From contig OZ024884.1 of assembly GCA_964017185.1 (NCBI GenBank), positions 1,185,501 through 1,249,500 on the forward strand: DNA of 64,000 nt. Direction: 5' to 3'. Below the pieces are notes generated by a model. The model worked only from the letters and a program-made list of their open reading frames with translations, ran no database searches and was not told the origin of the DNA. Shown in pieces: positions 3,673 to 56,469 of this stretch. This stretch comes from Rugalucina vietnamica (taxonomy: Eukaryota; Mollusca; Bivalvia; Lucinida; Lucinidae). A program made the position numbers and the translations under genes. The first letter of the stretch is position 1. The number at the start of each line of letters is the position of its first letter.

Positions 3673-6091
3673 AATAGAATAAATCAACTTTGTCTTTAAC
3701 TGCATTCCACACATCTCTGTTCAAGTATATAGTTTCTAAGTGATTGTCATTAGAGCACCACACGAAGAAATCACACCAGTCTAAACCAGATACAGCTAGC
3801 TGTGCCAACACTTGGTAGTAGTAGTTGTGATTACGCTTGAGATTTAGACGTCCCGTTTCATCTTTCATTAAGGTACTTCAATGACACTGGACACCTGAGG
3901 ACACTTGATTTCCAATAATCCGAAGGCTGGAAACCGCTCTGGATTGTATACTTTTCTGTCTGGGCTCGCAGCTATCCAGGGAGACCACAAACTAACAATC
4001 ACACCACAAGGATAAAGATTGACTATGTTCTGCAACTCTTCAGCATATGCCTTCGCAGCAACTGGCTCCAAAGCCAATCCTTGTCGCATTGCTGTCGTCA
4101 TAACGTGTCTAGTACTTTTCAATCTTTGTACAAGAGGACCCTCTTCCTTTCTGCGCTTGAATATTTCGCCAATGTTTGAGGCAGTGATTCTATTCCTTCT
4201 AATGCTGTACCACAGAGATGTTTGGCTCTGCAGTCGGGTGTTCTCTTCGAACCTTTGGATTTTTTTCTTACAAACTTTCAGTCCTTCAAATTTAACCAAC
4301 TGTTCGGATGTCAAGACAAAGTGAAAATTATTCATCATAACATTTGCTGCGGGAAGTTCTTGAAATCCTATGCCATCACAAACATTTAGAATGCAGTTAT
4401 CTTCAAGCCTTTGCTGGTAACTTAGTATAGATCCCCGAGGTACAGGCCCAAACTTGCTTGGTACATATCTTATGTTTACTTCCTGTATGGCTGGGATGAC
4501 AAGTAAGTCAGGAGATACAGATGACAGTTTTGTGCATTTCTCATGCCAGTTTATTGGTTGACCTCGTACAGGATTGTACAAAAAGGTACAAGTAGGCAAA
4601 GATCAGGAAAAGGCGCAATCAGAAAAAGATTCCCACTCCAAAAACCGAGGTGGGAAAAAACCAAACTAACAATCAGGTACTTATACCATGAAACATATCG
4701 TAAGCCGAATGAGCAGCTATTTTCCCAATAGGTGGCCACTCAGTTACCTTAACTTTACTAAAAATATGAAAACATACATAAGGCGCCAACAGCACAAAAA
4801 ATTTTAAACACCAAGACATAAAACAAAAAGAACCACTACAGAAGTATCGACTTGGAACGATCAGTAACACAAAGTTACTGGCGGGCTTAAACCGGTTTTA
4901 CAGGTACCTAACCTCACCCTCAGCTTCTGCAGTGGTTCACAACATTTAGTTAGTTCAAAGTTGACTTGATAGTTCTGGGCACTTCTTCTAAGTCTGGCAC
5001 TTTGGTTTTCGAATGTCCAAATACCTGTAAATCTTGGACAGCTTTTCCAGGAATAGATATACCTCGGGGAATATGCCAGGTTTGCGGTTGAGATGTTTTT
5101 GCGATGTCTTCCGGGATAGCTTTCAGCCCCTGCAGCTTGTACTTGGCAAACTGGTATAAAACTCCGGTTATGTGGCCACATGCGCCAGACAATCCTATTT
5201 TACAGGTACAATTGCTTCTTGTCACAGTTGGCTGTCTGTTCACTACTTCAATACAAACCTGAAATGAAAATATAAACATTTAGCGAGGGGTTCTATTTAT
5301 GTAAACATCTTTCATAGAAGGCATGATATTCCATATGCATTACAATATATTAGTGCTAATATCTGCAAAATCTTATTTTGAACTCATATATGTAAGTAAT
5401 GAGTTGCTGACTTGTGTATTGCACATTGAAAATTTAGTATTAATGTACATTTCATGTTGCATAATAATATGATTTAGATATTAAAAACACTTACCTTTAC
5501 AGTGTGTGGTTCTTCATTCTTTTTAAATGACCGGAAGCATCTTCCATACAGCTCACATCCATCTGAGAGTGGCTCAACTAAATGAAAGAGCGTTTATTTG
5601 AATGAATATGGTTTTGTTGAAAAAAGTCTGGGGAAAGATTAATTCCCTAAAGTAAACACATCTGGTATTCATTACATTCATGAACTTTCTTGTAATATAA
5701 GCAATAAACTTATGTGGTTATCGTCACTTTGAAGTAAACATTTCACAGTGGAATTACTATATCTTCTGGGAAGTTGCATGTATCTTAAAACCCAGAATTG
5801 TTTTGAGTGGCCTAAAAGGCTGCAAAGCTTATCAGCTATGATTATCAGATTGTACTTCTCTGTTTCCATTCAGGAAAGTACAAACAAGATATTTACAAGA
5901 GTTTAACACGTTAAATAAAACAAATTTTACTCACCTTTCAAGTCATGCACAAATGATTCTAAGAAGTACACAAATCCTCTGCTTATGGGTTTGCCACCAG
6001 AAGATTTTTTCTGTGATTTAATGAATGATTCAACAAATGAAAAAGACATAAATGGGACTAAAGAAAGATCTCTTTTGCTGTATGCAGCCAT
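3656..6091 (-). pseudogene. SWIM zinc finger / YqaJ-type nuclease of the ISL2EU element, broken
   Basis: On the minus strand I assign exon 1 at 6091-5935 (starts MAAYSKRDLS), exon 2 at 5577-5495 and exon 3 from 5258 down, with GTGAGT and GTAAGT donors and TTTAG and TTCAG acceptors. Exon 3 opens with a SWIM-like zinc finger (CTCKIGLSGACGH) and then has QTWHIPRG. After the insertion the frame resumes into a YqaJ/lambda-exonuclease-type PD-(D/E)XK fold: RRNRITASNIGEIFKRR, GLALEPVA, AASPDRK and LEIKCP. Two lesions are visible. A Penelope-like fragment at 4585-4955 separates the SWIM part from the nuclease part. A frameshift with TAA near 3868-3870 separates the nuclease core from its C-terminus (YYQVLAQLAVSGLDWCDF), which ends at TAG 3656-3658. 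Partners of this kind in ISL2EU elements are presumed recombinases that help processing; the exact role is not known to me. The copy is probably non-functional. Confidence 0.8.
4585..4955 (-). mobile_element. 5'-truncated Penelope-like 3' fragment inside YqaJ
   Basis: Read on the minus strand, this matches the 3' tail of the retroelement at 24089-27040: AACTAACTAAATGTT, a GGTTCTTTTTGTTTTATGTC block, GTGGCCACCTATTGGG, and the terminal CTACTTGTACC at 4585. It sits exactly between the SWIM and nuclease halves of the YqaJ gene. A T run follows the 3' end in element orientation. Confidence 0.85.
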
Positions 6092-18302: not shown

Positions 18303-18320
18303 TCCTCCAACCAAATGGTC

Positions 18321-20681
18321 CAGGTCACATAACCAAGATGGCCGTCATGGCTATAAATAGCAAAAACCTTTATAAATCTTCTTCTCCAGAACCAGAAGGC
18401 CTATGATTTTGAAACTTGGCATGAAACATCAGGCAATGGAGCTCTACAAAGTTTGTATAAATTATGACCTTGGGATGACCTTAACCTTTTTAGGGCAAGG
18501 TAAACTTAGGTCGCCCATGCATTTGAATGGGGAAAAATAGGAAAATGTCATTTAATGGCAGAAAACTTGCTAGGAATAGAAGATTTATGCTAATGAAAAT
18601 ATTTTTTGCCCAGGGGGTTGCCTGCCCCTGTCCCGGGGCTATATACATGTATATGACCATAATATTCAACCATCTTCTTCTCTGAAACTGCTTGACCAAT
18701 CAAAGCCAAACTTTATGTGGAGCATCTTTAGGAAGAGGGAATCAAGGTTTATATAAACGGTCAAGGTGACATGAACAAGATGGCTGCCATGACTATAAAT
18801 AGCAAAAACCTTTAAAAATCTTCTCCTTCGGAACCTGAATGCCTATGATTTTAAAACTTGGCATGAAGCATCTTCGAATAGAGCTCTACAAAGTTTGTAT
18901 AAATCATGATCCTGGGATGACCTTGATCTATTTTACGACATGGTCAACTTAGGTTGCCCATGGATTTGAATGGAAAAAATAGAAAAATGTCATGTAATAG
19001 CAGAAATCTTGCTAGGAATGAGCAAATGGACAGAAGTGTTATGCTTATGAAAATATTTTGGGTCCAGTGGGTTGTCTGCCCCTGTCTCTGTGCTATATAC
19101 ATGTGTATGACCATAATATTCAAACAGCTTCGTCTCTGAAACTGCTTGGCCAATCAAAGCCAAACGTTTTGTGGAGCATCCTTAGGAAGAGTGAGTGTTT
19201 ATATAAATGGTCGAGGTCACATGATCAAGATGGCCCACATGGCTATAAATAGCAAAAGCCTTTAAAAATCATTTTCTTAGAATCAGAAGGCCTATGATTT
19301 TGAAACCTGGCATGAAGCATCTGGGAATAGAGATCTACAAAGTTTGCATAAATCATGATCCTGGGATGACCTTTACCTATTTTACAGCAAGGTCAACTTA
19401 GGTTGCCTGTGCATTTGAATCGGAAAAAATAGGAAAATGTCATTTTATGTCAGAAAACTTAATAGGAATGAGCAAATGGACAGAAGATTTATGCTTATGA
19501 AAATATTTTTTGTCCCTGTGGGTTGTCTGCCTCTGTCCCGGGGCTATATACATGTATATGATAAAAATATTCAAACGTCTTTTTTCTGGAAACGGCTTGG
19601 CCAATCAAAGCCAAACTTTATTCGGAGCAAAATTAGGAATGGATAATGAAAGTTTGCATAAATAGTCAAGGTCACATGACCAAGATGGCCACCATGGCTA
19701 TAAATAAAAAAAACCTTTAAAAATCTTCAGAACCAGAAGGCCTATGATTTTGAAACTTGGCATGAAGCATCAAGGAATGGAGGTCTACAAAATTTATATA
19801 AATCATGACCCTGGGATTACCTTGACTTATTTTACGGCAATGTCAACTTAAGTCGCCCATGCAATTGAATGGGAAAAATTGTTAAAATGTCATTTGAAGG
19901 GCTTATCTTACAGTAAATTGGCAAATGGACTGAATTTTTATGATTTGCAAAATACATTAACTCCAGGTGTTATTCTGACACTGCCCTGGGGTTATATTTA
20001 TATACATGCATATTACAATTCTAGTCAAAAAACTATATGAGCGCGGATCCTTTAAAAGGTGTCTTCGGGCATTCAAGTACATTTTATGCTATTAAAATTT
20101 AAAAACCATCTAAATTTGAAATATTTGGCATGTTCTGATATTTATTTCATACAGCTTTAATATTGTAACATAATCCAAGGCACATACTTTTCTTATGGTT
20201 AAACGTTATTTGTATCATGTATGTTGCCATGGCAACCATTGCGCCATAAGGACTAACCTCATTTTAAAAACCAGGTACGCCCTTTGTATTGCATGTTTTA
20301 TCAAACAGTTTGTGAATTCGTGCCTATTGCATAGTCTGTGAAGTAGTATAGATGTTAAACTTAAAGATACACAGAGAAATTCAAGAATTTTAGTCTTGCC
20401 TTCTTTTAATTACAGTGATTTGAAGACGTTAACGTCATCAACGTCCAAACGTCATCAACAGTTTCATGACGTCACGTTTAGATTGCATCAACTACACACC
20501 TTTCAACGTTCATATCTTTGCTATTTGTAAAGATAATCTCTTCAAATTTTCAGGAAATACTCAGAGAAACTTGGTCTTTCATATGTAATTAATATCTTAA
20601 TTTTGATTTTTTCTGCCATAAGACCCCTTTTATCAGATCTTGGCCCATATATATATGTGAGCGTTTACAGGTCCTCTGGTT
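18321..20681 (+). mobile_element. Remainder of family H1 copy a with about 450-bp tandem units
   Basis: Three unit starts with CTTGGCCAATCAAAGCCAAA-type sequence lie near 18690, 19140 and 19590, giving a period of about 450 bp. Each unit holds CAAGATGGCC, GGCATGAAGCATC, GGGATGACCTTGA and a GGGGCTATATACATGTATAT block. The 3' end reads GAGCGTTTACAGGTCCTCTG at about 20659, a weakened form of the terminal hairpin seen intact at 37270-37284 and 54680-54694. Short open frames here (for example 18490-18699, 18944-19153) recur once per unit and are not genes. Confidence 0.75.
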
Positions 20682-20861
20682 TTAAGGCCTTTAAGGCCCA
20701 GTCCCATTGAATTGTACGATTTGGTTACCGTACGATTCATTATAAGATTCTAATTTTGGACTTCCACGATTTTCCTCTATTAGTTTTCGCGAGATTTATT
20801 GTGATGAAAGGTAAGATAATAATAATAATAATAAAAAACACTTATTATAAAGATCAAAAAA

Positions 20862-21144
20862 GGTACAAATAGGCAACGATCAGGAAAAGGCGCAATCAGA
20901 AAAAGATTCCCACTCCAAAAACCGAGGCGGGAAAAAACCAAACTAACAATAAGGTACTTATACCATGAAAACATTTCGGAAGCCGAATGAGCAGCTATTT
21001 TCACAATAGGTGGCCACTCAGTTTCCAAACTTAACTAAAAATATAATAACATACATAAGGCGCCAACAGCACAAAAAAATTTAAACACCAAGACAGAAAA
21101 CAATAAGAACCACCACAGAAGTATCGCCTTGGAACGATCAGTAA
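20862..21144 (-). mobile_element. 5'-truncated Penelope-like 3' fragment
   Basis: The minus strand matches the 3' tail of 24089-27040 and ends at GTACC (20862), followed by a T run. The left truncation falls in the GATCGTTCCAAG block near 21144. It carries no coding sequence. Confidence 0.85.
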
Positions 21145-21529
21145 TTTATATAAATTTCATTATCGGTCAGTAATAGTGGTTCCTAGTCATTTAAATATAA
21201 ATTCAAAATGTTTCACAATTTATTGCAAACAAATGAAATTATACCGCCTTTGGTACCCAATCTTGAATGTTACGATTCTATACCCTTCGATAGATTAAGT
21301 TATAAGTAAATGATATGAAGTAAGTATAGAAAAATGCATCCGATATCTCTTTGATACTTTTATGAAAGTTTATAATTAACTGCACCCAATTTCTGTGTTA
21401 TATACTCATCAAAAGAAGTTTTGCACCACTTAATATTTTTCTCATGAAGTGCATAGAGCTATTGCAGTCACCCCGGTCGTCCACGTTCCCGTTCCCGTGT
21501 GCGTTCCCGTTCCCGTACGCGTCACACTT

Positions 21530-22205
21530 GCGTTAAAGTTTTCTAGAAGTCCATATCTTGACAACCACTCATCAGAAAGCATTCATACTTGGACCATAGA
21601 TACCCTGTAGGGTTAGCTTTCATTCAATGGCATCGGGCCCCTGGGTCCAGGGCAGGGGGTGGGGCTGGAGGTTAAAATCTAGAACACCTTCAAAAATGGC
21701 AATTCTTGTGTTAAAGTTTTCTAGAAGTCCATATCTTAACAACCACTCATCAGAAAGCATTGATACTTGGGCCATTGACACCCTGTAGGGTCGGCTTTCA
21801 TTCCATGGCATCAGATCCATGGGACCATGCCAGGGGGTGGCGCTAGAGGTTAAAATCTAGAACACCATTAATAATAATGGCTTTTATGTAATATAGTATT
21901 CTAGAAGTTTATATCTTGAAAACTTTTTATCAGAGGGCTTTCATACTCGGACCATAGGTACCCTGTAGGGTTGAGTTTCATTTCATGGCATCGGACCTCT
22001 GGGTCCATGCCTGGGGGGTGGGGCTAGAGGTTAAAAACTAGAACACTGTAAAAAATAGATGTACTGCTGTGTAACTTGTACAAGGAGTCCATATCTTGAC
22101 AACAACTTATCATAAAGTATTCATACTTCATGCTAAGTTCCATGACATCGGACCTCTGGGTCGGAGTCAGGGGGGCAGGGCTAGAGGTCAAAATCTAGAA
22201 CTTCC
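21530..22205 (+). repeat. About 180-bp tandem array, four units
   Basis: Units start near 21533, 21711, 21892 and 22071. Shared blocks include CTAGAAGTCCATATCTTGAC, CCCTGTAGGGT, GGCATCGGACCTCTGGGTC and GGTTAAAATCTAGAAC. Divergence between units is substantial. This is the first of two arrays in family H2. Confidence 0.85.
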
Positions 22206-22330
22206 TATATTTTTTTTTTCTTTTCATTTCTTAATAGAAACAACTTAGGAAGATGGTTCGTCATTCATCTTTTGACTTGTGACACTGACTTGTGTGTCAT
22301 GACGGTAAGGTCGGTTGACCTACTTTCCAT

Positions 22331-23660
22331 GGTTCAGTGATTTTGCCTTATATCTTGACACTCAATTAGTATATTTTCATACTTTTTTCAGATTATGAGT
22401 GAGTACGACCAGGCCTTTGACCCCAATATACTCATAGGTCACTGTGACCTAATTTCACGGTTCAGTGATTTTGCCTTATATCTTGACACTCAATTAGTAT
22501 ATTTTCATACTTTTTTTCAGACTATGAGTGAGTATGACCAGACCTTTGACCCCAATATACTTATAGGTCACTGTGACCTAATTTCACGGTTCAGTGATTT
22601 TGCCTTATATCTTGACACTAAATTAGTATATTTTCATACTTTTTTCAGATTATGAGTGAGTATGACCAGACCTTTGACCCCAATATACTTACAGGTCAAT
22701 GTGACCTAATTTCACGGTTCAGTGACTTTGCCTTATATCTCGGTACTCAAATGGTTTATGAACAAACTTCTTTCAAAGTATGTTTGCGTATAACAAGACC
22801 TTTGACCCTGAAATAGTCCTAGGTCACTGTGACCTAATTTCACGGTTCAGTGATTTGGCCTTATATCTTGACACTCAATTAGTATATTTTCATACTTTTT
22901 TCAGATTATGAGTGAGTATGACCAGACCTTTGAACCCAATTTAGTTATAGGTCACTGTGACCTAATTTCACGGTTCAGTGACTTTGCCTTATATCTCGGC
23001 ACTCAAGTGGTTTATGAACAAACTTCTTTCACACTATGTTTGCGTATGACAAGACCTTTGACCCTAAAGTAGTCCTAGGTTAATATGACCTAATTTCACG
23101 GTTCAATGATTTTCCTTTATATCTCGGCACTCAATTGGTATATGAACATACTTCTTTCACAATATGTTTGCGTATGACAAGACCTTTGACCGTAAAGTAT
23201 TCCTGGGTCATTGTGACCTAATTTCATTGTTCAGTGATTTTGCCTTATATCTCGACACTCAGTTGGTATTTTTTCATACTTCTTTCTGATTATGAATGAG
23301 TATGACCAGACCTTTAACCCAAACATACTTATAGGTCACTATGACCTAATTTCATGGTACAGTGATTTTGCTTTATATCTCAACACCGAATGGGTATATG
23401 ATCATATTTCTTTCACATAGTGTGAAAGAAGTTTGTTCATAGACCTTTGACCCTGAAATACTTTTAGGTCAGTGTGACCTTATTTCAGGGTTCAGTGATT
23501 TTGCGTTGTGTCTTGGCACTTTCACAATATGAAGGAGACCTTTAAATCTTAGGTAGTTATAATTAACTTTCATGGTTCAGTGATTTTGCCTTATTGCATC
23601 AAGGCAAAAAAGATGTATGAGCATAATGCTTTGGGCTACTGGTCGGGTTTGTCCTTATGT
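22331..23660 (+). repeat. About 128-bp tandem array, eleven units
   Basis: The block GGTTCAGTGATTTTGCCTTA or its close variants recurs near 22331, 22459, 22589, 22716, 22844, 22972, 23100, 23229, 23356, 23489 and 23573. Units also share GACCAGACCTTTGACCC and AGGTCACTGTGACCTAATTT, the latter containing an inverted AGGTCA/TGACCT pair. Open frames across it reflect the repeat, not a gene. Confidence 0.9.
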
Positions 23661-24088
23661 TTGACAAAGGTCAGAAGCAGTCGAGCATGCTGTCCTGCGA
23701 CAGCTCTTATTTTAAAGTTATGTTAAGTATAGATCTTTTTCAAATAAACTTTTTATACTTAATACCATGTCAAAGGCCTTGACTTCGTGAATAACAAATC
23801 AATATTTTTTCTTAAAAAGGTTAAGTAAAAATGTGCAAAAATGCATGTTTTTTTTTTTAAAACACCAAAATTTGGGATGCAGCAAAAAGCCTGTATCTTT
23901 TTTTCTGGGCTTCCAAACCTGAATTTGTTTCATATCCTCACTCAAGATACTGAAAACAATCATTTAAAGCAAAACAACTAAAAACTGATTTTTTTTTGGA
24001 CAAAAACACTAATTTTGACCAAAAATAACGATTTTTGATATTTTGTTTTAATTTCTCAGATAAAGCTTAGTAACTCATCTCTCCAACA

Positions 24089-27040
24089 GAATGGTTGAAA
24101 TTGAACTGAAATTGAACATTGCATTGAAATTGAACATTTCCGTTAATGATTTAGCTGTTAAACTAAGGATTCACGGTCGACATCCAATGCTGTCTTATCT
24201 TAGTTCTCTGCCTATTGCTGCATTACGTTCCTTGGACACAGATGTTAATAGATTTTACGATAGAAATCATCAAATGTATGACGCCGTTCTGTTAACAAGA
24301 TGTTATACTCAGCATGCTCTTCGTCCATTTATCGATTCCGAATCTAATCACATTAGAAGTTTTATTAAAATTCCTTTCATTAATAAAGGAATTGACTTTA
24401 TTGATTTACCAAGCATATTCTAGAACAAATCAGTGATACAGTCTATACCTACCTACTTCCAAAATTCAGAACCTCCTATTATTTGTTACAAATATACCAA
24501 ACCAATCAGAAATACTATTTTTAATTTCAATAAACTTGTTTCTGATCTTGATATCCATGCTAATACTCCTAAGTCTTGAGATTGTAAAGATTCAAAATAT
24601 GTTTATCAACCAGCCGGACATATAGTTACTGGAAATTTAAAAGTAATTTCGGATTCTAGAATTCGCAAAATTGTTTCTAAAGGTCCGAAATATAGATTCC
24701 CATCCTACATTAATTTCGACAAATGTAGAGAGGAGATTGCATCTGCATTAAACGATTTCGGTAATCGATGATGTAAACGAGAGGGTGTTGAAGATAAAGC
24801 TCTTAAAGAATGGAAAAGAAGTATCTTCACTATCGTGGATAAACGTATTAAGTTTTATTCACAAAATACTAATCTTTTACCTCCTAAACCCAAATCGTCA
24901 TTTAGGCATTTGAAGCAGGGTATCCAAGAATTTCATAGAAAGTATGTCTTGGTTCCGGCAGACAAAGCCGCAAACAATGTTGTTGTCGTTTGTAGGCTTC
25001 ACTACGTTAACACCTAAAACAGGAGCTTGATGGTACCAGGGCTTATCTGGAGACAGATACTGATGAAGTGTCTGTAGTTAATGCCCACTTAAACGATTTA
25101 CCTGTTAAGTTTTCTGTTTGTGTCAATGAAGGCCAAGACAAACTTCCTACGATGTATTGGTTACCTAAGCTTCACAAAAGACAGTACAAAGCTAGATTTA
25201 TTGCAAATACTAGCTCTTGTACTACCACTGAACTTTCTAAATTATTAACTTCCTGTCTTACTGCTATCAAATCTTGAAATGAAACTTCAAATAAAAATTG
25301 GTTTTGGTCAAAAAAAAAATCTGGTGAGGTGCTCAGTAAATTGAAGTGTAGAAGGTTCCGTGCGGCAAGCTTGTCCACATATGATTTTTCTACGCTGTAT
25401 ACAGCATACCACATAATCTAATAAAAGAAAAACTTCTGGATATGATAGGGTGGACCTTCAAAAGAGCATTAAAAAACTATGGTTTACTTTATTTGGCATG
25501 TAATGACAGAAAGGCTTTTTCACTTCCTCTGACCAAAGTCGGTATACACTTTGGTCGTGTCAGAATGTGTGCGACGCCTTGTCTTTTCTCCTTGATAATA
25601 GTTATATTAGATTTGGGACCAAGTTATACAGACAAATTGTTGGAATTCCGATGGGTACAAATTGCGCACCTCTCGTAGCTGATTTATGTTTATACTGCTA
25701 CGAAAGAGATTTCATGGATTCTCTTAACCATGATAATCAAACTGTTTCAATTCCACATCTAGGTACCTCGATGACCTTTTGAACATTGACAACCCTTATT
25801 TTGAAGGTATGGTCAATCAAATTTATCCACCTGAACTACAGTTGAACAAAGCCAATATCTCAGATACCGAAGCCCCCTTTTTAGATCTACATCTTTCTGT
25901 TGCAAATGAATTTGTTTCGTCTAAAATTTATGATAAGCGCGATGACTTTGATTTTGATATAGTTAATTTTCCTTTTTTGGATGGTGACGTTCCTCGTCGT
26001 GCTTCTTATGGTGTATATATTTTGCAACTTATTAGGTTTGCTAGAGTCTGCAATCATGTTACAGACTTCAACGCTCGAAATAAATGTTTAACGGCCAAAC
26101 TTCTCCAACAGGGCTATCGGTATCATAAACTTCGAAAAACCTTTTCTAAATTTTATCGTAGGCACTATGAATTGATTTCCAAATATAATGTTGGATTAAA
26201 GACGCTTTTAAGTGAGGGCCTTTCGGAACCTGAATTTTATGGTGACTTGGTTTACAAATTTAAGAAACTTATTTTTCTTTTCAGTTCAGAAAAATCATAA
26301 CACGTTATGGACGTATAGGTTATAACTTGAATGTTATGCGACAGTCTGCATGCTTAGTTTTTAACCCAATCATGGTTGATAACTATGCTGCCTTCTTTAA
26401 TTGCACGCCGGTGGGTCGGGCGTCAGACTCTAAGATGGCCCAGACTTAAAGCTATTCATTTTAGTTGGTTGGGACCTGAGCTTCTTGTCTGTTGCTTGGA
26501 CCACCGGGGTCCAACTGGTGTTTTTCTTTTGCTCCGGAGTTAGTAGGTTATTCGGCGCCCAGGGATCTCCATCGTCGGGCAGCTTACTCAATCTGTGAGT
26601 CCTGGTTTTTGATTCATCAGGATGTTAATCATGATTTATTTGTTTGTTCTTGATGATTCATTGACTAGTTAGAGATTCACCACGAGGACCGAAGAACTAA
26701 CTAAATGTTATGAACAATTGCAGGTGGTGAGGGTGAGGTTAGGCGCCTGTAAAAGCCCGCCAGTAACTTTGTGTTACTGATCGTTCCAAGGCGATACTTC
26801 TGTGGTGGTTCTTTTTGTTTTATGTCTTGGTGTTTAAAAACAAATTGTGCTGTTGACGCCTTATGTGTGTTTTCATAGTTTCATAGTGGCCACCTATTGG
26901 GAAAATAGCTGCTCAATCGGCTTACGATATGTTTCATGGTATAAGTACCTGATTGTTAGTTTGGTTTTTTTCCATCTCGGTTTTTGGAGTGGGAATCTTT
27001 TTCTGATTGCGCCTTTTCCTGATCTTTGCCTACTTGTACC
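24089..27040 (+). mobile_element. Penelope-like retroelement, nearly full coding length, decayed
   Basis: Boundaries come from the uninterrupted relative of element A: foreign sequence starts after CTCTCCAACA and ends at CTACTTGTACC. It holds a degenerate reverse transcriptase gene and a 0.6-kb 3' tail with no poly(A). The same tail occurs, 5'-truncated to different extents, at seven other places in the window. Assignment to the Penelope-like class rests on RT motifs and is tentative; no GIY-YIG endonuclease was found. Confidence 0.7.
24091..26440 (+). pseudogene. Reverse transcriptase of a Penelope-like element, frameshifted
   Basis: The family protein would be around 750-800 residues. Here it is spread over frames broken by stops near 24421, 24578, 24770 and 25015 and by several small shifts. 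In order I see an N-terminal region ending IKIPFINKGIDFIDLPSIF, LVPADKAANNVVVV, YWLPKLHKRQYKARFIA (near 25150-25205), a segment with LSTYDFSTLYT (about 25370-25400), IPMGTNCAPLVADL (about 25640-25690), a RYLDDL-type catalytic motif across a frameshift near 25770, APFLDLHLSV and KLLQQGYRYHKLRKTFSKFY. The GxPMGxxxxPxxADL, (Y/F)xDD and PFLD signatures are those of a reverse transcriptase, and the KLHK motif fits Penelope-like enzymes. About 25270-25320 appears shortened relative to the family. It is not functional. Confidence 0.75.
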
Positions 27041-27139
27041 ATTTTTGTTTTACCTTCAAACACAACATGCAGCACCCCTTAATGTTTAACTGGGGGTACT
27101 GCTTTTCAACCCATCCAAATTCGGACTTTTTAAAAAGCT

Positions 27140-27214
27140 GCATATCAAAAACATACTCATGTTTTTGATATGCAGAAACATACTCATGTTTTCAAAAACA
27201 TACTCATGTTTTTA
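27140..27214. repeat. Palindromic, repeated junction at a Penelope-like insertion
   Basis: CTGCATATCAAAAAC and GTTTTTGATATGCAG are perfect 15-base arms around ATACTCAT (27142-27179). The block AACATACTCATG then recurs twice more before the truncated retroelement begins. The uninterrupted relative has this block only once (about 52152), so about 50 bp of local copied sequence was added at the junction. Confidence 0.8.
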
Positions 27215-27427
27215 ACATGACTAGTTAGAGATTCACCACGAGGACCGAAGCACTAACTAAATGTTATGAACCACTGCAGAAGCTGAGGGTGAGGTTATGG
27301 CCATGTAAAATCGATTTAAACCCACCAGTAACTTTGTGTTCCTGATCGTTCCAAGTCGATACTTCTGTTGTGGTTCTTTTTGTTTTATGTCATGGTGTTT
27401 AAAATATTTTTGTGCTGTTGGCGCCTT

Positions 27428-27447
27428 ATGTATGTTTTCATATTTTT
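27428..27447 (+). repeat. Left 20-bp target-site duplication of the LINE
   Basis: ATGTATGTTTTCATATTTTT is repeated perfectly at 32494-32513. In other Penelope-like copies it occurs once at this point of the tail, so it marks target-primed integration of the LINE between the two. Confidence 0.9.
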
Positions 27448-29182
27448 TAAAGAAATAAAGTCAACAAATCCACGGAAGTGAAATTCCTGGTTGTAAAACA
27501 TATTTTTGAAACTGGTACTCATATTTCTAACGAGGGTATTTATTTTATCTCTGTACATGGGTGGCACTTTTATCTAGAGCCCACTTTGAGTCCACAAAAT
27601 ATCGCAATTTTTTTTTTTTCTTTTTTTTTTTTTTGGTCCATCAGTTCTTCCAAGACGGGCTAATAGTTCAGTGTCAGTAGCATCCATCTAGCGGCAAAAG
27701 CCTGTAAAATGCAGTAGGAATGGCTCAAAGGTTTCGATCTGGAATTTCTGGTCTACATACCTATTCCGTAGGTCATGGATTGCGCACGGGCGTGGGCAAG
27801 ATATTTCTGTTGCAATAGCGTAAAGGGACCAGTGATCGATCAAAAATAGCCATGTTTGATAAATTTGCGGATCAGACATACAGTGGAGAATGCATGTGTA
27901 CATACCATATGCAAGCTTGAACCTTCGCCATGTTTTCCAATATGTCAATTTATGACGTCATCACGTCACATTCTCAGTGACGTCATTTTAACACACCCAC
28001 CATCATACAGCGTGAATCACAGTCAGGTGGACCAGTGATCGATCACCTTCTTTTTCTCTCCGAAACCGCGGCTAACTTTGAAGGTATGCACATTTTTAGA
28101 AAGAATGATTATTGCTTACCTCTAGCCACGAAACACAGTTTGGAAATTTTCAGTGAGTTAAAAGAAATAAAGCAGCGGAATGAGGTGGTCAAAAAGCATA
28201 AACGCCCATAGAAACAATGGAAAACTGTTGAAAAAATAGCTCGAAAATCACAGAAATTGTCCATTAATCGCAGCGTTATCTTATACAACTTGTTGATGTC
28301 AGGTCAGTTTAACTGCTACTGTAACATGTAATCAGTACTACCTGTTGTCATGCGGTGCAGATGGGGCTCGTTAGCCTTGGAAGGCAACTCATCTAGGAGT
28401 TAAGCTAGTTCTCTACACAAAAATCTAGCTGGGCAGGGGGAACTCATTAGTCTTGGTTGACAGTCCTCCTAGGAGTTTACAGGTCTCTAAACAAAACCTA
28501 AGAAAGGGTAGATGGAGCTCTTCAGCTGTGGCCAGCAATTCATCTAGGAGAAGGAAACTCCAAAATCAAACCTGTGTGTCTGGATATGCCTAGTCCAGAT
28601 ATGCAAAGACTGTTTCGGTAGATGGAGCGGAAGACATCACCTGATTCAACGGTTCAGAAAGCGATACAGCAACATGATGTGGAACATGCAGAGCGTGACA
28701 AGGCACTAAAGATGTTACGGTCATCCACTGCATCCAAACCCAACTCCAGACGTCTTGACCTGTGTCTTGCCTCTGGGCGCAGCTGGGCGAGGACTAGAGA
28801 GTGAGGTTGACGTTGCGCACCTCTTCCTCACTATAATCCAATTTCATAGCGCATGTCATCTTATTTCTCAACACACAAGCACTTGCATACACAACAATTT
28901 CATCACACTTGCACCCACATACCAACAAAGTCCTGTGGCGATGGGCGAGTGGCGAAGCAGCAGGTGTAGGACACACTGGGAGCTGTAGTTGCAGACCTGC
29001 ACACAGGCGGCTCAGTTCTAATGGTCGCTTTCTGTGAGGAGAAGCAGTAAGCAGAATTCGGCAGTCGGCTGAGCGACTGAGCAGACCTATTTAGGACCGC
29101 ACTGCTCACCCCCGTAGCATGGGGAAGGGGCTAGAAAAGGTGCCCTAAACAATTGCCTGCTTCAAACCCCCTGGCTGGTTAA
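27448..29182 (+). other. 5' region of the LINE
   Basis: No frame here shows a domain; the longest, 28622-28804, is 60 codons and unrecognised. A T-rich run lies at 27609-27634. At about 28360-28560 a CAACTCATCTAGGAG-like motif recurs three times at roughly 70-90 bp spacing, which may be a promoter or leader repeat. An in-frame TAA at 29180 closes the downstream ORF on this side. Confidence 0.6.
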
Positions 29183-32100
29183 CCGCGATCAGCGGGGATC
29201 CCCTTAAGCGGTCGAAATACAAAGAAAAAAGCTAGAGTAATCCCCTTACGGATTGGCGCATGGAATGTGCGTACTTTAATGGACAATGCTGGGTCAGATA
29301 GACCACAGCGTAGAACGGCCCTTGTGGGCAGAGAACTTGGGAGGTATGATATACAGATAGCTGCATTGAGTGAGACTCGGTTCGCAGATGTTGGGGAGAT
29401 CAAAGAAGTTGGTGCTGGATACACCTTCTTCTGGAGTGGACGCAAAAGTGAAGAGAGGCGTGAAGCAGGAGTTGGCTTTGCCATCAAAACAGAACTTGTT
29501 GGTAAGCTGTCAGGATTGCCAAAAGGCATTAATGACCGTCTAATGACATTGAGACTTCCTCTGTCAGGCAATAAACATGCAACTATTGTCAGTGCTTATG
29601 CACCCACAATGACCAATCCAGATGAGGTCAAGGACAAGTTCTATGATGACCTAGACAATGTTATTTCTGCAACACCCCGCACAGACAAGCTTATCCTTCT
29701 TGGCGACTTTAATGCCAGAGTGGGTACAGACCACCAGACCTGGGAAGGAGTTATAGGTCCAGAAGGGGTTGGAAAGTGCAACAGCAATGGTCTCTTGCTT
29801 CTCAGGAAGTGTGCTGAACATGACCTTCTAATCACCAACACAGTCTTCCGTCTACCTAATAGGAACAAAACATCCTGGATGCATCCCCGTTCCAAACACT
29901 GGCATCTCATAGACTATGTCATAGTGCGGAGAACAGACAGGCAGGATGTTAAAGTGACAAAGACTATGTGTGGTGCAGACTGCTGGACAGATCATAGACT
30001 GGTTGTCAGCAAACTCAACCTAAGAATACAGCCTGCGAGGCGACCTCAAGGCAAGAAAGCTCCTAAGAGACTGGATGTCTCAAAGCTGAATAAAGACAGC
30101 ATGAGACAAGATTTCTTAACAGACATTTGCAACCAACTGGATGCAATGAATCTCAGTTCAGAGGACCCCGAAGAAAACTGGACAGTTTTCCATAAAACAG
30201 TTCTCTCTTCAGCTGCAAGCACCTTAGGCCATCCATCTCGCAAACATCAAGACTGGTTTGATGAGAATGATGACGAAATTCAGAGGCTTCTTGAAGAAAA
30301 GCACCGATTGCACAAGGCACATCAAGATGATACTAGCTCAGTATCAAAGAAAGCAGCCTACAGCAACATTTGTAAGACAGTCCAGACCAAGCTTAGGGAC
30401 ATGCAAGATTCCTGGCTGAGGAAGAAAACAGAAGAAATTCAGTCTTTTGCGGATAGAAAGGACATGAAGAAATTTCATGATGCACTGAAAACCATTTATG
30501 GTCCAAAGAGTTCTGGAGCCACCACATTGCTCAGTGCAGATGGTAACACTCTTCTCACAGATAAAGAAGCTATCTTGGAAAGGTGGGCAGAACACTTCAA
30601 TAGTGTGCTTAATCGACCATCAAGCATCAATGAGGATGCAATCGACAGACTTCCACAGATAGAGTGCAATGTTCTGTTAGATGAATTTCCTACCGTTACG
30701 GAAACAAGAAAAGCAGTTCAACAACTATCATCTGGCAAAGCCCCAGGTGCAGATGCAATTCCTGCCGAAGTTTACAAGGCTGGGGGGCTACCCATGGCAG
30801 AGAAACTGACAGAGTTGTTTCACTGTATGTGGAGAAAGGAGGCTATCCCACAAGAATTTAAGGATGCATCCATAATCCACCTATACAAGCGGAAAGGAAA
30901 TCCTCAAGTCTGTGACAATCACAGAGGCATCTCCCTCCTATCAATTGCTGGGAAGATACTTGCAAAAATTCTGTTGAATCGTCTGAATGTTCATCTTGAT
31001 CAGACGGGACTTATCCCAGAAAGTCAATGTGGATTCAGAAAAGACAGAGGGACAATAGACATGATCTTCACAGCAAGACAGCTTCAGGAGAAATGCCAAG
31101 AACAGAATGTAGATCTATACATGACGTTTGTTGACCTCACCAAAGCTTTTGACACTGTTAGTCGTGATGGACTCTGGAAAATCATGGCCAAGTTTGGCTG
31201 TCCACCCAGATTCATAGCAATGGTGCGGCAGTTTCATGATGGCATGCAGGCACGTGTGCAAAATGATGGAGAGTTCTCTGAACCATTTGAAGTAACAAAT
31301 GGGGTCAAACAAGGCTGTGTTCTGGCACCAACACTGTTCAGCATGATGTTTTCTGCCATGCTTATGGATGCTTTTCAGGACAGTGACACTGGTTTTCCAA
31401 TCAGGTACCGTTTTGATGGCAACATATTCAACCTCAGAAGGTTGCAAGCCAAAACTAAGGTCCAGACTGATGTGCTAGATGAGCTCCTCTATGCAGATGA
31501 TATGGATAAGAATGCCTGCACAGAGGCAAAAATGCAAAGAGCCATGGATCAAGTCTCACAGTCATGTGATAACTATGATCTCACAATCAGCACAAAAAAG
31601 ACAGAGGTTGTACACCAACCAGCGCCCGGAAAGCCATATAATGAACCAACCATCACTGTGAATGGGCAAAAACTGAAAGTTGTTGACAAGTTCACCTACC
31701 TGGGAAGCACACTCTCCAGAGCAGTGCATATTGATGATGAGATCACTGCCAGAATTGCAAAGGCTAGTGTGGCATTCGGACGACTCCGTGCAAATGTCTG
31801 GGAGCGAAATGGAATCAAGCTTGACACCAAGCTGAAAGTCTACAAGGCTGTGGTACTGCCAACCCTCTTGTATGCATGTGAGACCTGGACAGTATACCAA
31901 CGCCATGCAAAGAGACTTAACCATTTCCACTTAAGCTGTTTGAGAAAGTTGTTAAAAATCAAGTGGCAGGACAAGATTCCAGACACAGAGGTCCTGACGA
32001 AAGCAGGGATGCAAAGCATGCATACAGTCTTAAAGCTAGCACAGCTAAGATGGACTGGCCATGTTATAAGAATGCCTGATGCGCGACTTCCAAAGAAAGT

Positions 32101-32458
32101 TTTCTATGGAGAACTACAGGAGGGAAAGCGCTCTCAAGGTGGCCAGAAGAAACGCTACAAAGACACCCTCAAAGCCTCTCTGAAGGATTTCGAAATACCA
32201 ATGGGGTCCTGGGAACAGACTGCACAGGAGCGATCAAAGTGGCGAGGTCTCATCAACAAAGGAGCAGCTCTTTATGAAAAGAAGAGAATCTGTGAAGCTG
32301 AAAGAAAGCGAAGAGAGCGCAAAGCCAAAACAAATGTGCCAACATCAGACTCTATGACATTGACTTGCTCTACTTGCAACCGACAGTTTAGAGCCAGAAT
32401 TGGCCTAGTCAGCCATCAAAGAACTCACCAACACACATCAGCACTATTCAAGAAATAA
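29183..32458 (+). CDS. LINE ORF: APE endonuclease, reverse transcriptase, C2H2 zinc finger
   Basis: The protein nicks target DNA and reverse-transcribes element RNA there. Residue numbers below are from 29267. The APE domain includes RIGAWNVRTL just upstream (29249-29278), LSETR about 33, SAYAP about 108, LGDFNARVG about 144-152 and TDHRLV about 243. The RT has SGKAPGADAIPAEVY near 490, FVDLTKAFDTV, NGVKQGCVLAPTLF and a LLYADDMD catalytic motif near 740. A C2H2 finger (CSTCNRQF with SHQRTHQH) lies at about 1033-1055. The frame is open for more than 1060 codons, with no stop. The conserved WNVRTL motif lies upstream of the first in-frame ATG (29279); the frame is open to 29183 without any ATG. 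Initiation is therefore at a non-AUG codon, or the N-terminus is supplied another way, or an upstream change has removed the start. Confidence 0.85.
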   Translation, partial: PRSAGIPLSGRNTKKKARVIPLRIGAWNVRTLMDNAGSDRPQRRTALVGRELGRYDIQIAALSETRFADVGEIKEVGAGYTFFWSGRKSEERREAGVGFAIKTELVGKLSGLPKGINDRLMTLRLPLSGNKHATIVSAYAPTMTNPDEVKDKFYDDLDNVISATPRTDKLILLGDFNARVGTDHQTWEGVIGPEGVGKCNSNGLLLLRKCAEHDLLITNTVFRLPNRNKTSWMHPRSKHWHLIDYVIVRRTDRQDVKVTKTMCGADCWTDHRLVVSKLNLRIQPARRPQGKKAPKRLDVSKLNKDSMRQDFLTDICNQLDAMNLSSEDPEENWTVFHKTVLSSAASTLGHPSRKHQDWFDENDDEIQRLLEEKHRLHKAHQDDTSSVSKKAAYSNICKTVQTKLRDMQDSWLRKKTEEIQSFADRKDMKKFHDALKTIYGPKSSGATTLLSADGNTLLTDKEAILERWAEHFNSVLNRPSSINEDAIDRLPQIECNVLLDEFPTVTETRKAVQQLSSGKAPGADAIPAEVYKAGGLPMAEKLTELFHCMWRKEAIPQEFKDASIIHLYKRKGNPQVCDNHRGISLLSIAGKILAKILLNRLNVHLDQTGLIPESQCGFRKDRGTIDMIFTARQLQEKCQEQNVDLYMTFVDLTKAFDTVSRDGLWKIMAKFGCPPRFIAMVRQFHDGMQARVQNDGEFSEPFEVTNGVKQGCVLAPTLFSMMFSAMLMDAFQDSDTGFPIRYRFDGNIFNLRRLQAKTKVQTDVLDELLYADDMDKNACTEAKMQRAMDQVSQSCDNYDLTISTKKTEVVHQPAPGKPYNEPTITVNGQKLKVVDKFTYLGSTLSRAVHIDDEITARIAKASVAFGRLRANVWERNGIKLDTKLKVYKAVVLPTLLYACETWTVYQRHAKRLNHFHLSCLRKLLKIKWQDKIPDTEVLTKAGMQSMHTVLKLAQLRWTGHVIRMPDARLPKKVFYGELQEGKRSQGGQKKRYKDTLKASLKDFEIPMGSWEQTAQERSKWRGLINKGAALYEKKRICEAERKRRERKAKTNVPTSDSMTLTCSTCNRQFRARIGLVSHQRTHQHTSALFKK

Positions 32459-32493
32459 TGATGGTCTTTCTCATTAGTGAGAGACGAACTATC

Positions 32494-32513
32494 ATGTATG
32501 TTTTCATATTTTT
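32494..32513 (+). repeat. Right 20-bp target-site duplication of the LINE
   Basis: This is a perfect copy of 27428-27447. It directly follows the LINE 3' end GAGAGACGAACTATC, which has no poly(A) tail. Confidence 0.9.
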
Positions 32514-33200
32514 AGTTAAGGTAAGGTAACTGAGTGGCCACCTATTGGGAAAATAGCTGCTCATTCGGCTTACGAAATGTTTTCATGGTATAAGTACCTG
32601 ATTGTTAGTTTGGTGTTTTCCCACCTCGGTTTTTGGGGTGGGAATCTTTTTCTGATTGCGCCTTTTCCTGATCTTTGCCTACTTGTACCTTCATGCAGCA
32701 TCTTTGAAATGAGATCGCCTTTAACAGAAAGAAAACAAGCGGCAGGTTTTGGTGTCAAACATCTATTAGTGATAAAAAAGTGGAATGAATTTTGATTCTA
32801 CTCATTTTCTCCAATATTTATGATTTTTTTTCTCAAAAATTGCAATTTTGTCAAACAATGCATTTTTACCAACATTTTGAGATTTTCAAAATTGTTTTAA
32901 GGCTTAATCATTAGCTTTTGGGCTCTTGTGTGTAAATTGGGAAGCAAAAATGTGTTCTTAAGTCTGTGTCATTTTGGTGGATTTTTTTCGATTGTCCAAT
33001 TTTCTGTATTTACAGAAAATGGGAATTCTCAATTTTTTCCTAAAATCGTGTCCCCAACTTGTTTTGGTCTTATCACACACATTGTGAAACTCTTTTAGAC
33101 TGTGCCAATTCAAAAAACTAGGTTGAAAATTTGTTAGTCAAAATGTCACTTAACAATATGAAAAATTCTAAATAGTACAAAACTTCTTTTGAAGGGTATA

Positions 33201-46773: not shown

Positions 46774-48080
46774 ATATATACCAAACACTCTACAAACACG
46801 TATTATTTTGTATAAGATTTTCACAAACAATAAACCATCGCCATGCTATTAAAAGACCATAAGTCTCTGAAAAACGTGATTGCCCTGTTAATTGAACATG
46901 AGCGCGACAAAATGTGCCTTCGGACATTCTGACATTACTGAGTAGAAAGCGGCAAAAAGCGGAAATTCAAAATAATGTTACTATGAAATAATAATGTTTT
47001 AGTAATCTTGGAACACAGGGCTACCAAATGAATGAGTTTTAAAATATATTTAATTTCAATATTTGGAGTTATCTGCCCTTGTTTTAGCACATTTTATACT
47101 TAATTTTCCTATATATATCGATAAACGGCAACCATAGCGATCACATCGTCCTAAAAATAGATAAAATACGAATGTAAGAGAATGATTTGCATCTATTTTA
47201 ACAAAGTTTTTTTTATCAGTCCTAAACAGTTTTAAGCAAATGCATCGAATTGTGAAGACACTTGTAACATAGCCGCACAGGCTGATTTCTGTGCCGGCTA
47301 TTATTCCTGACAAATGACAACATTGACGAAATAGTTGCACAGGCTCAACCGGCCTGATCGCAGAGTAGTACCATTCCTGGAAACGGTAACATGAACATAA
47401 TTGAACAATAGTGCAGCCTGATTCCTGCGCTATGATGAGTTCTATAATGTTAATGACGACCATGAATTTAATGATAAAGAGCATTGTGCGAATAAGGCAA
47501 TCCAGGTCACAGGTTAACAATTGACGAAATTGTGCTGGCTGTACCCGCGCAGGCTATTAATCCGGTTAAAGGCACAATTTGAGTGTCTTGTGATGCTGAA
47601 CGTCCGGCGCCAAAGTGGGGACTCAAGCGCCCGTCCAACCTGTTCGTCGACCATAGAGTTGTGTTTATGAGCCCCCCCCAGGGGGTTCTTTGATCCCTAA
47701 TCCCTGAAAGAAAAATGACCTTTCACCCCAGCTTCCTAAAATGTTTTTCCTCAGCCCCCTGCTCCCTAACCCCCCCCCCCCAAGAAGTTATGATTTCTTC
47801 CCAAATCCCTGAAAATAAATGACCCTTCCCCCCACATCCCTGAAAATAAATGACTCTCCTCCCTGGATTCTCAAAACCCCTGGGAAGGGGTAAATTATCT
47901 TATCTGGATCTTTTAAATTTTATGTTGTTTTCTGGTTACCCGTGATTTGGGGATTTTATTAAGTTAAATGTTTACAATGTTGTATTTTCAAAACATGAAC
48001 ACCGCAAAGCACTGAGAATTCAACACTGTTAGCCGGCATTAGCCAGAATGCATTTCAGGATGATCGCGCTCATTTACGAA
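46774..48080. other. No recognised gene
   Basis: A 154-codon minus-strand frame at 47056-47520 has no recognisable domain and overlaps degenerate GCACAGGCT/CCTG repeats, so I do not call it a gene. A C-rich array lies at 47665-47890. Confidence 0.5.
47665..47890 (+). repeat. C-rich degenerate tandem repeat
   Basis: Units resemble ATCCCTGAAAATAAATGACC followed by a C run, with about four to five copies. Clearest copies start near 47698, 47805 and 47837. Confidence 0.7.
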
Positions 48081-48728
48081 GGTACAAGTAGGCAACGATC
48101 AGGAAAAGGCGCAATCAGAAAAAGATTCCCACTCCAAAAACCGAGGTGGGAAAAATTAAACTGACAATCAAGTACTTATACCATGAAACATATCGTAAGC
48201 CGAATGGGTAGCTGTTTTCCCAATAGGTGGCCACTCAGTTACCTAAACTTAACTAAAAATATGATAACATACATAAGGCGCCAACAGTTTAAAAATTTAA
48301 ACACCAAGACATAAAACAATAAGAACCACCACAGAAGCATCACCCTGGAACGATCTGTAATATACAATTACTGTCGGGCCCAAATCGACCCCACAAGCAC
48401 CCAACCCCACCCTCAGCTTCTGCAGTGCTTCGAAACATTTAGTTAGTTGTTCGGTCTTCGTGGTGAATCTCTAGCTAGTCAACGAACCATCATGGACAAA
48501 CAAAAAATCATGATAAATGCCATGATGAATCAAAAACGAGGACTCGCAGATTGAGTAAGCTGCCCGACGATCGACATCCCTTGGCGCCAAATAACTTACT
48601 AACTCCGGGGCAAAAGAAACAATACCAGTTGAACCCCGGTGGGCCAAGCTCCGGCCCTAAGCAACTAAAATGAATAGCTTTAAGTCGGGGCCATCGAAGA
48701 GTCTGATGCCCGACCCACCGGAGTATGC
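48081..48728 (-). mobile_element. Penelope-like 3' fragment, 648 bp
   Basis: On the minus strand it begins in the CCGGTGGGTCGGGCATCAGA block at the end of the RT region and runs through the full 3' tail to GTACC at 48081. It is one of the longer truncated copies and diverged from 24089-27040 by many substitutions. Confidence 0.85.
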
Positions 48729-51195: not shown

Positions 51196-51234
51196 TCTGA
51201 TTGCGCCTTTTCCTGATCATTGCCTACTTGTACC
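51196..51234 (+). repeat. Extreme 3' tip of a Penelope-like copy
   Basis: TCTGATTGCGCCTTTTCCTG then ATCATTGCCTACTTGTACC are the last 39 bases of the element tail and are followed by TTTT. It is the shortest 3'-anchored copy in the window. Confidence 0.75.
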
Positions 51235-51354
51235 TTTTCATATCCGAGTTGTTGTGTTTGTGCCGTGTTGCGTAACTAAACTCAAAACTCTCCACGTTTT
51301 ACCAATCCTCATTGATTGCTTGCATTTTACTATCCCTAACGGTATAATCTAAAT

Positions 51355-51437
51355 GTAATGCGACAGTCTGCATGCTTATCTTTTAACCCAGTCATGGTTG
51401 ATAACTATGCTGCCTTCTTTAACTGCACGCCGGTGGG
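51355..51437 (+). repeat. Internal Penelope-like fragment (end of RT region)
   Basis: ATGCGACAGTCTGCATGCTT through GCACGCCGGTGGGTC matches 26336-26420 and 55620-55700. It lacks the 3' tail and lies about 120 bp beyond the tip at 51196-51234, so the two may be remains of one rearranged copy. Confidence 0.75.
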
Positions 51438-51593
51438 TCAAAAATTCTAGGCTGCCATTTTTCTTACATTTATCTCTTTCTTTCATAATGTCCAAAACAG
51501 TCTGGTTGAATATTTCTTTTTACTCTTTGTGTTTTAATAGGTACATGTTTATCGAGAATTTGTGTAAACAGTGAATACCAAAGTTTTATAATA

Positions 51594-51873
51594 TACTCAT
51601 CAAAAGAAGTTTTGCACCGGTTAATATTTTTCTCATTTTAATATAATGTTAGGTATAGATCTTTTTCAAATAAACTTTTAAAACTTAATACCATGTTAAA
51701 GGCCTGGACTTCGTGAATAGCAAATCAATATTTTTTCTTAAAAAGATTAAGTAAAAATGTGCAAACATGCATGTTTTTGAAAACACCAAAATTTTGGATT
51801 CAGCAAAAAGCCCGCATCTTTTTTTCTGGGCTTCCAAACCTGAATTTGTTTAACACTGAAAGCAATCATTTAA

Positions 51874-51930
<57 letters not shown>

Positions 51931-52653
51931 AAAAAAAATAAAAACTTATTTTTTTGGACAAAAACACTATTTTTGACCAAAAATAACGATTTTTGAGATT
52001 TTGTTTAAATTATCAGATAAAGCTTAGTAACTCATCTCTCCAATAAAAAAGTTGTTTTTCCTTCAAACACAGCATGCAGCACTAATGTTTAACTGGAGGT
52101 ACTGCTTTTCAACCCATCCAAATTCCGACTTTTTAAAAAGCTGCGTATCAAAAACATACTCATGCAGCTTCTTTGACATAAGATCGCCTTTAACAGAAAG
52201 AAAACAAGTGGCAGGTTTTGGTGTCAAAATATCTCATAGTGATCAAACATTTAAATGAATTTTGATTTTACTCATTTTCTCCAATATTTATGATTTTTTT
52301 TCTCAAAAATTGCATTTTTCTTTTAAAAATGCATTTTTATCAAACTTTTAGATTTTTAAAATTGTTTTTAGGCTTAATCATTAGCTTTGAGGCTCGTGTG
52401 TGTAAATTGGGAGACAAAAATGTGTTTTTAACTCTGTGTCATTTTTGGTGGAATTTTTTCGATTTTCCAATTTTCTGTATTTTCATTTTTTCCGAGAACC
52501 GTTTCCGCAACTTGTTTTGGTCTTATCACACACATTATCAAACCCTTTCAGACTGTGCAAATTCAACAAGCTAGGTCGAAAATTTGTTAGTCAAAATGTC
52601 ACTGAAAATATGAAAAAAATCTAAATGGTGCAAAACTTGTTTTGATGGGTATA
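51594..52653. mobile_element. TIR element B, uninterrupted relative of element A
   Basis: It starts TACTCATCAAAAGAAGTTTT and ends with the inverted GCAAAACTTGTTTTGATGGG, about 1.06 kb. Between lie the same blocks as in element A, in order. An A run of about 50 bases at 51878-51930 is private to this copy. No transposase is encoded. Confidence 0.85.
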
Positions 52654-55229: not shown

Positions 55230-55437
55230 GCATAAGAAGATGTTAAATGACTGTTTTCGGAGTAAACCGTAAACTTTTCAGATGCCGAAAAACAAAGTGA
55301 CTTTTGAGGTCCCATGTATTCTTTGACGTAGCGTAATTGCGTCAGAAAAAGATGACTTTCCGGCGAAATCAGGAAATTGTAGTTCCTCAAAGTTTAAATA
55401 TTGATTGGTAAAAGTGTTTGTTTCTGTTGAATTTCAC

Positions 55438-56350: not shown

Positions 56351-56469
56351 TTTTTTTTCAAACCATTTTTCGATTTGGAAATCAGATAATAATTGCTTAA
56401 CTTAAGTCTCATAGTATATTTGAATTAGCAGTGACCCTTATGGGCTCTGTGATCGGCTGTTTAAGTCCT

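Follow-up and report, generated by a model that had tools for sequence, protein, structure and literature searches.

Work on human LINE-1, a long interspersed nuclear element (LINE), provides the closest described counterpart of the insertion analysed here. Seventeen insertions with unique RNA sequence at their 5′ end are described in the human genome hg38, and in the examples of 5′ transduction given in that report the source copy was, as here, not found (PMC13174262). We analysed a stretch of 64,000 nucleotides from the lucinid bivalve Rugalucina vietnamica, hereafter the window (contig OZ024884.1, called C16; C16:1185501-1249500 of the 1.09-Gb assembly GCA_964017185.1), and within it the region 21403–33200, where a nest of mobile elements is built into a short non-autonomous element, A. 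The nest is confirmed and is ordinary in kind. The part worth keeping is a composite LINE insertion, in which additional sequence precedes the LINE and which may be the product of a 5′ transduction.

Four pieces of A are separated by three insertions, namely a Helentron-type element and two Penelope-like elements of the Naiad type (Naiad-1 and Naiad-2), the second of which contains the LINE insertion. Positions in A refer to a consensus of 1,044 bp, including the flanking TA, that was made from 20 genome copies and B, a relative of A in the window. Positions in the Naiads refer to L032 (1570–5800), a young Naiad-type relative with a 4,230-bp unit. X denotes the segment carried ahead of the LINE, and Y a dispersed repeat of which X contains a part. 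The features are as follows.

21401..21445, forward strand: A piece 1, consensus 1–45, the TA (21401–21402) and the 5′ inverted repeat.
21446..23710, forward strand: Helentron-type non-autonomous element (HINE-like), with a microsatellite, two arrays, a 3′ subterminal repeat and a hairpin.
23711..24094, forward strand: A piece 2, consensus about 46–420.
24095..24119, forward strand: Naiad-1 5′ junction filler, repeats of Naiad-1’s own truncation point (TTGAAATTGAAC).
24120..27044, forward strand: Naiad-1, unit positions 1230–4228 of L032, 5′-truncated, frame broken.
27045..27161, forward strand: A piece 3, consensus 422–538.
27162..27217, forward strand: Naiad-2 5′ junction filler, composed largely of copies, both direct and inverted, of the neighbouring A sequence (27138–27161).
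27218..27447, forward strand: Naiad-2 left part, unit positions 3825–4053, ending in the left copy of a 20-bp duplication (27428–27447).
27448..27815, forward strand: X part 1; 27456–27817 matches C3:32663510-32663945(-), locus L101.
27816..28297, forward strand: X part 2, the first 477 bp of Y (27816–28292), then TTGAT.
28298..32493, forward strand: LINE, 4.2 kb, whose single open frame has 1,091 codons (29183–32455).
32494..32690, forward strand: Naiad-2 right part, its first bases being the right-hand copy of the 20-bp duplication (32494–32513).
32691..33200, forward strand: A piece 4, consensus 534–1042, with TCATG at its start and an inverted repeat and TA at its end.
51594..52653, forward strand: B, a diverged member of the A family that no insert interrupts; its A-rich tract is at 51877–51944.

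The bounds of the LINE insertion and the bounds of the LINE itself are different. A single 20-bp target duplication, ATGTATGTTTTCATATTTTT, encloses positions 27448–32493, that is, X and the LINE together. LINE copies in the genome were sampled as the 32 best-scoring, hence longest, of 4,416 candidates, with a query that extended about 20 bp into the flanks at both ends. All 31 other scored copies start at query positions 858–875, 21 of them exactly at 874, which is window position 28298, and they end at about window position 32494 or just past it, with a reported identity of 99–100%. The original prediction had a complete LINE beginning at 27448; the family begins 850 bp later, and the insertion is composite. 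The open frame contains matches to a reverse transcriptase domain (PF00078, 1.3e-32) and an endonuclease/exonuclease domain (PF03372, 6.8e-9), and the match to L1 ORF2p has a value of 7.9e-25. By these domains the element would be a non-long-terminal-repeat (non-LTR) retrotransposon of the APE type, and general knowledge of LINEs suggests that it would move by target-primed reverse transcription. Clear target duplications of 7–12 bp were found in eight of ten sampled copies, against 20 bp in the window, and the 5′ joints of those eight have 0–7 extra bases.

X amounts to 850 bp, of which about 368 bp are like a segment of contig C3 and 477 bp are Y. When the whole of X was used as a query, only the window matched throughout; the matches of the 39 other places among the best 40 of 818 all fall in Y, from about 27816 onward. 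The segment 27456–27817 has one other near-full-length match among the best 40 of 79, at C3:32663510-32663945. The two sequences are identical at 353 of 359 aligned bases, and the window copy differs further by five deletions (2, 15, 14, 39 and 7 nt) and one 3-nt insertion in a T run. At least two of the deletions are at short direct repeats (GCA and ATACC). The C3 locus continues through this point with neither Y nor the LINE. Y begins at TA in all 12 fetched copies and extends past the point at which the window switches from Y to the LINE. Where the C3-like part meets Y, the C3 sequence has a TA and Y has its 5′ end. The joint between Y and the LINE, ACTTG + TTGAT + GTCAGG, has five extra bases and resembles the ordinary 5′ joints of this LINE. 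The surroundings of the C3 locus (L101, C3:32661500-32665500) include two oppositely oriented Naiad fragments and repeats of a GGCACGACCGTCGTGCGGATAGCC-like motif.

The simplest reading of X would be a 5′ transduction, in which the C3-like segment and Y were carried along by a read-through transcript of the LINE. The source would be a haplotype outside the assembly with Y in the C3 locus and the LINE within Y. A putative transcript started upstream would read through the C3 sequence, Y and the LINE and be copied into Naiad-2; the RNA that was copied would then have been longer than the LINE, with a start matching C3, followed by the first 477 bp of Y and by the full-length LINE. We favour a 5′ transduction because each of the two inner joints resembles an ordinary transposition joint, a single target duplication encloses the whole and the LINE has its full length. 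Moreover, the extra 5′ sequence is inside the target duplication and is traceable to another locus, as expected of such an event. Upstream sequence and a full-length LINE within one target duplication are features shared with the human LINE-1 examples given in the report cited above (PMC13174262). Compared with those examples, no splice junction was seen in the window insertion, a portion of a second repeat was carried along, and the LINE shows no poly(A) tail (PMC13174262). We lean modestly to the view that the LINE moved upstream host DNA and part of Y between contigs in the form of a single unspliced read-through RNA, and that the nest keeps a C3-Y-LINE locus that is absent from its place of origin in the assembly.

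Several observations weigh against this proposal. It requires a doubly occupied C3 haplotype, and none is in the assembly. Neither a search for the exact junction of the LINE inside Y (up to three mismatches) nor a gapped search without mismatches gave any match in the assembly, both searches presupposing that the 3′ side of the LINE continues into Y as in other copies. Likewise, no fusion of C3 sequence to Y was found outside the window among the best 40 places for X or the best 40 for the C3-like part. The C3-like part is not fully unique: of the 38 further places in its search, 37 match only the last 105 bases or so (73–86%) and one matches a 44-base stretch (91%). No clear 3′ end or target duplication of Y emerged from four longer copies. 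The transcript started in C3 is putative, its direction included. Finally, five deletions against a single insertion suggest template jumping rather than allelic divergence alone.

This last point leads to template switching, a named route to LINE-1 chimeras in the report on human insertions (PMC13174262). Here the LINE enzyme would have reached the 5′ end of the LINE RNA, jumped to a Y RNA, and then, or within the same RNA, gone on to a C3 transcript. X would be expected inside the same 20-bp target duplication, as it is; the five deletions of the C3-like part, with their short direct repeats, resemble jumps of a reverse transcriptase; and a C3-Y-LINE source is absent from all the assembly searches that were made. 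However, the C3-Y joint coincides with a TA and with the start of Y, and the Y-LINE joint resembles that of a normal insertion. Jumps are not expected to honour the ends of elements, and the full length of the LINE also speaks against them. Template switching is a serious rival to 5′ transduction, and we regard it as possible rather than probable.

A third origin of X would be DNA repair: an ordinary LINE insertion would have had its 5′ end joined by means of a patch copied from Y and C3 DNA. That 5′ joining can be messy is seen in the 5′ joints of both Naiads, which contain templated filler. However, the filler, of 25 and 56 bp, is short and of local origin, and X is 850 bp, comes from elsewhere and is bounded by the ends of elements, so a patch appears improbable. 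Splicing was also considered and is not favoured, with a GT donor absent at both joints.

We turn to the element in which the nest is built. A has inverted repeats of about 46 bp (43–49 bp), its two ends being 83–88% alike. The copies fetched from the genome are 20 of the 22 best places after the window’s own (40 scored of 1,382 candidates). A TA stands directly 5′ of A in 16 of these 20 (17 if a one-base shift is allowed in L020), as well as 5′ of the window A and of B, and 14 of the 20 have TATA at the 3′ end. The longest stop-to-stop frame in the 20 copies, B and the consensus is 66–121 codons, and so A has no transposase of its own. A looks like a Tc1/mariner-like non-autonomous element of about 1 kb, the transposase type being presumed. 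It shares with miniature inverted-repeat transposable elements of the Tc1/mariner type the inverted repeats, the TA target, the length of about 1 kb and the short frames.

The pieces 21403–21445, 23711–24094, 27045–27161 and 32691–33200 have the order and orientation of the family sequence. They align collinearly with B, as the original prediction implied, at its positions 1–43, 38–461, 459–571 and 567–1060, and align even better with the A consensus, at 3–45, 40–420, 422–538 and 534–1042 (74, 568, 189 and 757 bits). When the region was Markov-shuffled 100 times, no score exceeded 34.6 bits, with a word size of 11, against 7 for the real match. The piece boundaries given earlier were correct to within about 10 bp. 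The four pieces could be an artefact of assembly or alignment, or A could be a composite family that constantly carries the inserts. The inserts are absent from all 20 fetched copies of A, which span 1,011–1,095 bp, although this sample is biased to uninterrupted copies and at least one copy lower in the list (C6:71523153-71524424) is split by something else. The fetched Helentron, Naiad and LINE copies have different surroundings, and the joints carry structures specific to each element. Apart from one consensus base (421) that is lost between the pieces, at the Naiad-1 site, nothing speaks for such an artefact or composite family, and its probability is negligible.

The role proposed for B has to be revised. 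B was put forward as a built-in empty site, but it is a diverged paralogue with flanks other than those of A, 18 kb downstream, and not an orthologous pre-insertion site; the joined flanks of A match nothing but themselves within the window. Similarly, the near-equality of the summed pieces and B (1058 and 1060 bp) stands as a count and loses its force as evidence. The agreement is partly due to chance, because B contains a 68-bp A-rich tract and is at a Kimura two-parameter (K2P) distance of 0.057 from the consensus.

The build order of the nest can be read in part. The claimed succession, in which A was followed by the tandem-array element and two Penelope-like insertions and finally by the LINE, is supported, and the divergence of the layers agrees with it in the main. 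K2P distances to the A consensus are 0.053 for the pieces of A and 0.022–0.055 (mean 0.038) for the 20 copies; those to L032 are 0.034 for Naiad-1 and 0.043 for Naiad-2, whose two parts, with few sites, give 0.059 and 0.023. The near-identity of the LINE copies fits a late arrival and suggests that the insertion of X and the LINE may be polymorphic in the species. A inserted first, at a TA. The Helentron-type element, at a T-T step, and the two 5′-truncated Naiads, in the same orientation, followed in an order that the nesting does not reveal. The young LINE entered Naiad-2 last, with its 20-bp target duplication. Of the four-level nest that was predicted, the nest is real, and its depth is three (A, Naiad-2 and the LINE insertion). 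Taken together, the nest is the outcome of successive transpositions, the LINE step probably carrying C3-Y by 5′ transduction.

The first insert resembles the Cg_HINE elements of the oyster Crassostrea gigas. As described there, these have a microsatellite and central tandem arrays, of which in exceptional cases two are consecutive, a 5′ subterminal repeat, a 3′ subterminal repeat followed by a palindrome, and a T-rich target (PMC7492417). The window insert has a GTTCCC microsatellite and then consecutive tandem arrays of about 178 and 128 bp. In the full-length copy L043, the 5′ subterminal TAGCTCGACTG matches the 3′ subterminal CAGTCGAGCA, next to which is the hairpin GCTGTC-CTGC-GACAGC. Full-length copies start with TAGCTCGACTGCACGAAGTGC after a T-rich flank, the 5′ end being visible in 11 of 20 fetched copies, and in all 11 a T precedes AGCTCG. 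The 3′ end, a hairpin followed by TCTTAT, is seen in 16 of the 20. Read by eye, TCTCAT is the A sequence that precedes the insert, and the TCTTAT with which the insert closes is the family end. The window copy is at a K2P distance of 0.016–0.051 from 11 copies, and the fetched copies elsewhere have other flanks. Subterminal repeats, microsatellite, arrays, palindrome and T-rich target are thus common to this family and Cg_HINE, the likeness being one of description (PMC7492417). In contrast to Cg_HINE as described, the window copy has lost the 5′ subterminal repeat together with the first 14 bp or so of its family (PMC7492417).

The second and third inserts are both Naiads. In Naiads, a GIY-YIG domain precedes the reverse transcriptase, partial copies form pseudo-LTRs, junctions may be tandem or inverted, and copies number in the tens of thousands. 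A subset has in-frame TGA codons and a SECIS element. Craig et al. are said to have described Naiad Penelope-like elements in Mol Biol Evol in 2021, reportedly including clam Naiads with selenoprotein signals. Unlike a complete Naiad, both window copies are 5′-truncated, starting at unit positions 1230 (Naiad-1) and 3825 (Naiad-2). They have the same orientation and are separated by 117 bp of A. Naiad-2 has the 5-bp target duplication TCATG, and that of Naiad-1 does not exceed 3 bp. Twelve of the 14 fetched loci match the window element over its whole length. The Naiad 3′ site occurs 31,385 times in the genome at up to two mismatches. Five more Naiad fragments are in the window, at 4583–4956, 20860–21144, 48079–48724, 51196–51439 and 55435–56352, the first with 99.7% identity to L032.

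The assignment of the family comes from L032. Upstream of its unit is a partial copy of its own 3′ end, identical over 567 bp, and such upstream partial copies vary in length, as pseudo-LTRs. When L032:2236-2760 was scanned alone, with TGA read as C, GIY-YIG (PF01541) scored 27.4 bits against a cut-off of 22.6; a domain search with the whole L032 protein gave no match to GIY-YIG. RVT_1 scored 11.8 bits, below its cut-off of 29.6, and no significant solved relative was found by sequence. From its motifs, we tentatively take the reverse transcriptase, downstream of GIY-YIG, to be of the Penelope type. The L032 frame has three in-frame TGA codons, and a SECIS_1 match of 39.0 bits (gathering score 35) lies over the end of the frame, at L032:5156-5223. 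The third TGA is retained in 15 of the 16 copies seen, the remaining copy having TAA; this is weak evidence of constraint because young copies are near-identical. The TGA codons and the SECIS suggest that the product of the L032 family may be a selenoprotein. This reading covers the family and not the window copies, and the SECIS core is altered in Naiad-1. No ribozyme at the Rfam gathering score was found in L032:900-6000 or in the window. L032 and Poseidon, a Penelope-like element of Anolis that has been studied in vitro, are both tandem with pseudo-LTRs; Poseidon differs in having a C-terminal endonuclease and a hammerhead ribozyme (PMC11167929).

The insertion of the LINE into a Naiad raises the possibility that the nest reflects targeting, the LINE being site-specific for the Naiad 3′ region. 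The same Naiad position holds four LINE 3′ ends, although the first hint of this was biased, since the LINE query carried its Naiad flank of about 20 bp on each side. These four insertions are independent because their 5′ structures differ: a 20-bp duplication and X in the window, a duplication of about 11 bp on C14, one of about 12 bp on C2, and one of about 17 bp on C3, where the LINE is truncated at nt 728. At least 1,514 LINE 3′ ends were counted by an exact pattern, four of them at the Naiad site, against the 31,385 Naiad sites given above. With motif frequencies taken from the window, the estimated number of same-site insertions expected is about 0.3 if the LINE requires no more than T|A, 0.9 for TT|A, 2.8 for TT|AT and 15 for CTT|AT. 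The abundance of the site and a short motif can thus suffice. A mild excess is possible, but site-specific targeting is not needed given these counts, and we consider it very unlikely. The same-site LINE on C2 (C2:50552764-50557671) exceeds the family length by about 0.7 kb and may hold an insertion, and an inverted Naiad fragment is found near one of the same-site insertions (L098, C3:78493250-78494150).

Elsewhere in the window, a tandem array of 3.5 copies with a period of about 450 bp lies outside the nest, at 18313–19895. No tRNA genes were found in the window with bacterial settings.

Nested transposons are common, and the present nest mainly shows how nests mislead. It had been expected to provide exact ends for families whose ends are otherwise hard to find. 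Only the 3′ ends of the Helentron, the Naiads and the LINE are present; the 5′ ends are missing or misplaced in the Helentron, both Naiads and the LINE. Since the outer 5′ boundary of each of the four inserts differs from the true 5′ end of its family, family boundaries should be taken from other copies. If the 5′ transduction is true, a LINE other than mammalian LINE-1 would have moved DNA from its 5′ side, in a case that can be traced from C3 to C16, and one assembly would have sufficed to recognise a 5′ transduction by an invertebrate LINE.

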